Below, piece by piece: positions 1,032-1,176 of a stretch of DNA of 64,000 nt. The number at the start of each line of letters is the position of its first letter. The stretch's first letter is position 1. This stretch comes from Actinoplanes auranticolor (lineage in GTDB: Bacteria; Actinomycetota; Actinomycetes; Mycobacteriales; Micromonosporaceae): NCBI RefSeq assembly GCF_018332655.1, contig NZ_BOQL01000084.1, forward strand, positions 1 through 64,000, read 5' to 3'. The position numbers and the translations under genes were made by a program. The notes under the pieces are model-generated. The model searched no databases and was not told the DNA's origin. It was given only the letters and a program-made list of their open reading frames with translations.

Positions 1032-1037
1032 TACGAT
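1032..1037 (+). promoter_or_regulatory. -10 element of the trpS leader
   Basis: TACGAT, a strong actinobacterial -10 hexamer, lies exactly seven bases before the GTG of the leader peptide at 1045. That spacing puts the transcription start on or next to the GTG, so the leader would be translated from a leaderless mRNA. No convincing -35 is visible. Confidence 0.6.
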
Positions 1038-1044
1038 CGGCCGC

Positions 1045-1083
1045 GTGAACACCGCGTGCCCGCAGAACTGGCGTCCGTCCTAG
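1045..1083 (+). CDS. Trp-codon leader peptide of trpS
   Basis: A 12-codon frame starting with GTG and ending in TAG encodes MNTACPQNWRPS. It contains one Trp codon at 1069-1071 directly before the first arm of a stem-loop ladder. It follows a -10 box by seven bases and is therefore probably leaderless. Its role would be to report the charging of tRNA-Trp: a ribosome stalled at the Trp codon would cover the first arm (1075-1080) and let the antiterminator form. Leader-peptide attenuation of an auxiliary trpS is known in Streptomyces coelicolor; assignment here rests on sequence layout. Confidence 0.75.
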   Translation: MNTACPQNWRPS

Positions 1084-1142
1084 CGACGGCTGCCACCTCC
1101 GCACGCGCGGGCCGTCCCATCCGGACGGCCCGTTCTGTGTTT
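1075..1142 (+). terminator. Attenuator with mutually exclusive stems before trpS
   Basis: Four complementary arms are visible. Arm 1 is CCGTCC (1075-1080), arm 2 GACGGC (1085-1090), arm 3 GGGCCGTCC (1109-1117) and arm 4 GGACGGCCC (1123-1131). Arms 3 and 4 form a perfect 9-bp stem with a 5-base loop followed by GTTCTGTGTTT, an intrinsic terminator. Arm 2 can pair with either arm 1 or arm 3. This is the classic 1:2, 2:3, 3:4 architecture of ribosome-mediated transcription attenuation, with the leader-peptide stop codon at 1081-1083 lying between arms 1 and 2. Confidence 0.8.
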
Positions 1143-1176
1143 CCCGGGTCGTCCACGACCTCCCCGGGAGACAGAG

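Follow-up and report, generated by a model that had tools for sequence, protein, structure and literature searches.

A predicted tryptophan attenuator with an additional conserved helix upstream of an unexpected type of auxiliary trpS in Actinoplanes auranticolor

As far as can be read from the DNA, the auxiliary trpS gene of the soil actinobacterium Actinoplanes auranticolor appears to be preceded by a real and complete tryptophan attenuator, which carries an extra conserved helix, serves an unexpected enzyme and probably switches on this spare tryptophanyl-tRNA synthetase (TrpRS) when charged Trp-tRNA runs low. In agreement with an earlier note on this DNA, we hold with high confidence that the element is a ribosome-mediated transcription attenuator sensing charged tRNA-Trp, because the leader ORF, its Trp codon, the -10-like element and the arms are conserved, the helices 1:2, 2:3 and 3:4 covary, the fold switches in silico in all 65 leaders folded and leaders of this kind are associated with auxiliary trpS genes only. 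Positions are those of the window, the whole stretch of 64,000 nucleotides that was analysed. The earlier note had listed the TACGAT hexamer, a 12-codon leader with a Trp codon, four arms and a T-rich tract, and all of these were recovered at or very near the places it had given them (Table 1).

Table 1. Features of the leader region upstream of the auxiliary trpS gene in the window.
Feature	Position	Strand	Evidence and remarks
-10-like element TACGAT	1032..1037	+	TANNNT at leaderless spacing in 24/25 leaders found by the RNA model
Leader ORF MNTACPQNWRPS and stop, GTG start	1045..1083	+	12 codons; range over 69 leaders 9-16 codons
Trp sensor codon TGG, opening the conserved W[W/R] pair	1069..1071	+	Invariant in 37 aligned leaders
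Arm 0, CGCGTGC, within the leader ORF, partner 1101-1107	1053..1059	+	Fold and covariation
Arm 1, CCGTC, partner 1085-1089	1075..1079	+	Fold and own-versus-cross covariation
Arm 2, GACGGC, partner arm 1 or arm 3 (1111-1116)	1085..1090	+	Covariation
Arm 0', GCACGCG, in the linker 5' of the terminator, partner arm 0	1101..1107	+	Fold and covariation
Arm 3, GGGCCGTCC, 5' side of the terminator, alternatively paired with arm 2 in the antiterminator	1109..1117	+	Covariation, terminator scan
Arm 4, GGACGGCCC, terminator 3' arm	1123..1131	+	3:4 covariation
T-rich tract TTCTGTGTTT, complementary also to the trpS Shine-Dalgarno region	1133..1142	+	Terminator scan, folding
Arm 5, GGGTCGTCC, inexact repeat of arm 3, could pair with arm 4	1146..1154	+	Hypothetical
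trpS Shine-Dalgarno GGGAG, predicted to form a hairpin stem with the T-tract region	1166..1170	+	Sequence, fold
trpS, auxiliary tryptophanyl-tRNA synthetase, 341 aa	1177..2202	+	TIGR00233 match

The leader GTG at 1045 follows TACGAT by 7 nt, and a divergent flavin-reductase-like gene starts at about 1014 on the other strand. No sigma-70 -35 box was found upstream of the leader. The 98-nt leader folds at -52 kcal/mol compared with -36 kcal/mol for shuffled sequences (z -4.7; 0/200 shuffles as good), and in the fold the 1:2 helix is lengthened by pairing of 1069-1073 with 1091-1095. A terminator scan returned an 11-pair hairpin at 1107-1133, the better of two overlapping matches (expected 0.0); trpS is thus preceded by a predicted intrinsic terminator with a U-tract, though the T-tract is interrupted.

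Conservation of the Trp codon and the arms in related genomes had been set beforehand as one point on which the attenuator reading hung, and both are conserved. A leader comprising Trp codon, leaderless -10 and arms precedes orthologues of the trpS of the window (window type) in the genus and in other genera of the family. The same kind of leader was found at window-type genes in Streptomyces, Kitasatospora, Actinomadura, Microbispora, Saccharopolyspora and Nonomuraea, and further ones in Propionibacteriaceae, Microbacteriaceae, Kocuria and others. Copies from Bifidobacterium, Coriobacteriia and other phyla yielded no comparable leader, and three long ORFs picked up there by the search rule look like chance. 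Since this rule itself demanded a Trp codon and TANNNT, the leader counts of this survey, and those of the comparison of housekeeping with auxiliary genes, are selected. A single Trp codon, for which the earlier note had considered a different sensitivity, is nothing unusual, being found in 11 of the 69 leaders (two in 49, three in 9) and also in TrpL2 of S. lividans (PMC8079986); the residue after the first Trp is Trp in 58 of the 69 leaders and Arg in 9. Window-type genes without a detectable leader occur in three relatives within the family (L034-L036) and in Streptomyces sparsogenes (L056), and in the tree at least two of these copies sit near copies that have a leader. In one genus of the order (L177, L180, L183, L184, L190) the leaders start with MR.QNAQWWPPSGG and stop well past arm 2, which would place a terminating ribosome further downstream than in the window.

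A less biased check than the rule-based counts was obtained with a covariance model built from 37 leaders without the promoter and without information on the trpS gene. Its search of 200 genomes across the order retained 29 loci besides the window, 26 of them with a TrpRS gene directly downstream (all but L188, L189 and L193). Among the TrpRS matches outside the training set, TANNNT lies 4-9 nt before a start codon in 24 of 25, compared with 4.8% in shuffles. This supports leaderless initiation as a trait of the family, and in the A. auranticolor strain the transcript would start at or next to the leader GTG. A larger regulon in the same genome was rejected, as none of the seven next-best matches of the model there has a leaderless Trp leader (several being plain terminators) and trpE has no Trp leader either. 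This trpE (L194), which in lacking a leader differs from trpE of Streptomyces and Corynebacterium, directly follows a hisI-like gene.

Covariation of the arms across related trpS leaders, which the earlier note had put forward as a check, was seen for 1:2, 2:3 and 3:4 alike. For the 2:3 helix 97.3% of the cells in 37 leaders are paired and 11 cells carry double changes, a value that none of 500 shuffles reached, and sliding the partner by one column lowers pairing to 33-47%; the 3:4 helix has five pairs with double changes (0/500 shuffles). Because the arm registers differ between subtypes, we used in addition an own-versus-cross test, which asks whether the arms of a leader pair better with each other than with arms from other leaders. 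Among 29 non-redundant leaders, own arms were favoured for 1:2 (z -5.1), 2:3 (z -3.9), 3:4 (z -10.5) and an outer helix, 0:0' (z -4.8), and five non-predicted pairings showed no excess in the same leaders. The antiterminator 2:3 and the terminator 3:4 share arm 3 and are mutually exclusive, and both covary.

For the switching test, leaders were folded to the end of arm 3 in two states, as free RNA and with a ribosome covering the 5' part; the edge of the ribosome footprint was assumed to lie 14 nt beyond the first nucleotide of the codon in the A site. In silico, 1:2 forms in 65/65 leaders as free RNA and, under the assumed footprint, 2:3 forms in 65/65 with the ribosome stalled on the first Trp codon. 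With the ribosome at the stop 2:3 forms in 0/65, which is so by construction, arm 2 being masked. When the linkers were shuffled, 27% attained an expected number of five base pairs, against 100% observed. The energies in the window are about -15 kcal/mol for 2:3 and about -30 kcal/mol for the 3:4 terminator; the latter is the stronger at equilibrium and hence antitermination must be kinetic, as it is in classical attenuators.

The proposed mechanism runs as follows. With ample Trp-tRNA the ribosome would reach the stop codon at 1081 and cover arms 1 and 2, upon which 3:4 would pair and RNA polymerase would terminate. With scarce Trp-tRNA it would wait at the TGG at 1069 and cover arm 1, so that 2:3 could pair and transcription would read through into trpS. 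If no ribosome has loaded, 1:2 together with the outer helix would hold the terminating state.

This outer helix is built from a 5' segment of the leader ORF and the linker between arms 2 and 3 (1053-1059 with 1101-1107 in the fold of the window) and was absent from the earlier note, as was a hairpin over the trpS Shine-Dalgarno (SD) region. In a pool of three TrpRS types, own arms beat cross arms with z -8.0, and with z -6.9 when permuted within type only. For the window type composition shuffles concur and the reversed-sequence control is not significant. In the two remaining types the reversed sequences, too, gave partly significant values, probably owing to the near-palindromic arms of these types, and the cross test is consequently the better evidence there. 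In free RNA, 80% of the 65 leaders form at least three pairs of 0:0'. The helix encloses 1:2 and crosses 2:3, so 0:0' and 2:3 cannot form together without a pseudoknot, and we infer that it should strengthen the off state as long as no ribosome occupies the leader. A ribosome stalled at the TGG, with an assumed footprint of about 1052-1083, would mask arms 0 and 1 together. The outer helix would offer a simple reason why a leaderless leader that is not being translated stays off. We know of no earlier description of it, our coverage of the experimental literature on Streptomyces attenuation being incomplete.

Between the terminator and the gene, the T-tract and the SD region are predicted to form a strong hairpin in the window (-26.3 kcal/mol, z -4.2), whose own arms beat cross arms in a pool of types A and B (z -5.4). 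This hairpin could be taken to decide expression by itself, with control mainly translational and the upstream hairpin a weak or incidental terminator. Such a reading is very unlikely, since it leaves the invariant Trp codon and the covarying 1:2 and 2:3 arms unexplained, the covariation of T-tract and SD is weak outside the genus of the window (z -1.9) and absent by the own-versus-cross test in the Streptomyces type, and SD exposure is predicted to differ between the states in only 3/15 leaders of the genus, with no general release upon antitermination. It is also conceivable, with a chance of perhaps one in four, that the auxiliary trpS leaders of Actinobacteria work as a relay that goes beyond the four classical arms. 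The outer helix would enclose the 5' portion of the leader (together with the start codon in some cases) and block the antiterminator pending an early ribosome; the T-tract would pair with the SD; and arm 5 would capture arm 4 once arm 2 takes arm 3. If true, a single stall would govern termination and translation alike. Arm 5 (1146-1154) is a near copy of arm 3, but 4:5 covariation is weak (z -2.6) in a test in which the arm 3:mid control was significant as well. The full translational relay, with 4:5 freeing the SD, found no support at equilibrium, given the weak 4:5 covariation and the 3/15 genus leaders that switch; the downstream pairing of the T-tract with the SD and of arm 5 is kept as a hypothetical lead.

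Two further readings deserve even less credit. The hairpin at 1107-1133 is a good terminator by itself and GC-rich DNA gives many short ORFs, so that a constitutive terminator might just end a short transcript behind a chance reading frame; the invariant TGG, the conserved geometry, the covariation of 1:2 and 2:3 in addition to 3:4 and the association with auxiliary trpS only make this exceedingly improbable. The chance that a T-box or a Trp-binding riboswitch controls trpS is just as slight. Genes for aminoacyl-tRNA synthetases are under T-box control in other groups (PMC1262725), but Rfam gave no match to the region even at E up to 1, and none to nine loci with leaders of relatives; what is present instead is a leader ORF whose sensor codon is conserved.

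The enzyme behind the leader was less expected. The product matches TIGR00233 trpS with 235.8 bits (cut-off 176.75), and TrpRS II of Deinococcus radiodurans is the nearest relative with a solved structure. A second TrpRS in the same genome is of the housekeeping type and 33% identical to it. Across the genus, a TrpRS match was obtained in 67/67 searched genomes, nearly all of which have two. Housekeeping trpS genes have the leader in 0/16 cases (L002, L024-L033, L140, L230-L233). Where a genome of the genus lacks the window type, its second TrpRS is a different one, with a leader in 14/14 examined, mostly MRxxxLxWWLP. The second TrpRS of Streptomyces has one in 16/16 examined, e.g. MTTRTCTQLW(W/R)AA, matching TrpL2 of S. 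lividans. This leader type came to light by scanning for ORFs in front of Streptomyces TrpRS genes; the exact DNA pattern of the S. lividans leader had no match in 394 members of the class.

The tree sets the window type apart from the other auxiliary types, on two deep, well-supported sides, and the TrpRS of the window is 33-38% identical to the Streptomyces type. The earlier note had drawn a parallel to trpS of S. coelicolor, which stands for the regulation and fails for the enzyme. Orthology with Streptomyces TrpRS1 was rejected on this identity and the separate deep branch, the TrpRS1 type having been recognised through its leader peptide, with S. coelicolor not identified by name among the sequences compared. 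As the enzyme belongs to a different TrpRS lineage, indolmycin resistance is not transferable by orthology. At about residue 62 the conserved His of the housekeeping enzyme (VVDLHAIT) is Gln in the window type (VADYQVLT), and the other TrpRS types compared keep the His. This position of the DLHAIT motif presumably matters for indolmycin, and a link of the Gln to inhibitor resistance is possible. Within the one genus, species carry either of two unrelated auxiliary TrpRS (L126-L139 versus L004-L021), each behind a leaderless Trp leader. This may reflect replacement of the enzyme behind a kept switch, or repeated evolution or convergence of the leader, and the genus offers a case in which these can be tested against each other. 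Moreover, a second, unrelated kind of auxiliary TrpRS is hereby tied to the Trp-sensing control known for the indolmycin-resistant Streptomyces enzyme.

The logic of 1:2, 2:3 and 3:4 pairing is that of the attenuator of the enterobacterial trp operon, whose leader, unlike the one described here, has its own Shine-Dalgarno and tandem Trp codons; to our knowledge it has no helix that encloses the 5' portion of the leader ORF. The trpE attenuators of Corynebacterium and Streptomyces likewise combine a leader peptide with Trp codons, an antiterminator and a GC-rich terminator (PMC1262725), but they use two or three Trp codons and control biosynthesis rather than aminoacylation. Upstream of another actinobacterial trpS, trpS2 of S. 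avermitilis, a classical attenuator was similarly predicted by Seliverstov et al. 2005 (PMC1262725). The trpL2/trpS attenuator of S. lividans is supported by RNA-seq, and its TrpL2, MMTRTCTQLWRAA, is leaderless with 13 codons and one Trp followed by Arg (PMC8079986). The region studied here resembles trpL2/trpS of S. lividans and S. coelicolor in its predicted leaderless leader with one Trp followed by Arg, its hairpins and the monocistronic trpS downstream. It differs in the sequences of leader peptide and arms, in a TrpRS from the other deep branch and in the T-rich tract after the terminator, none being reported for trpL2 (PMC8079986). The outer 0:0' helix is predicted in Streptomyces leaders of the trpL2 type as well.
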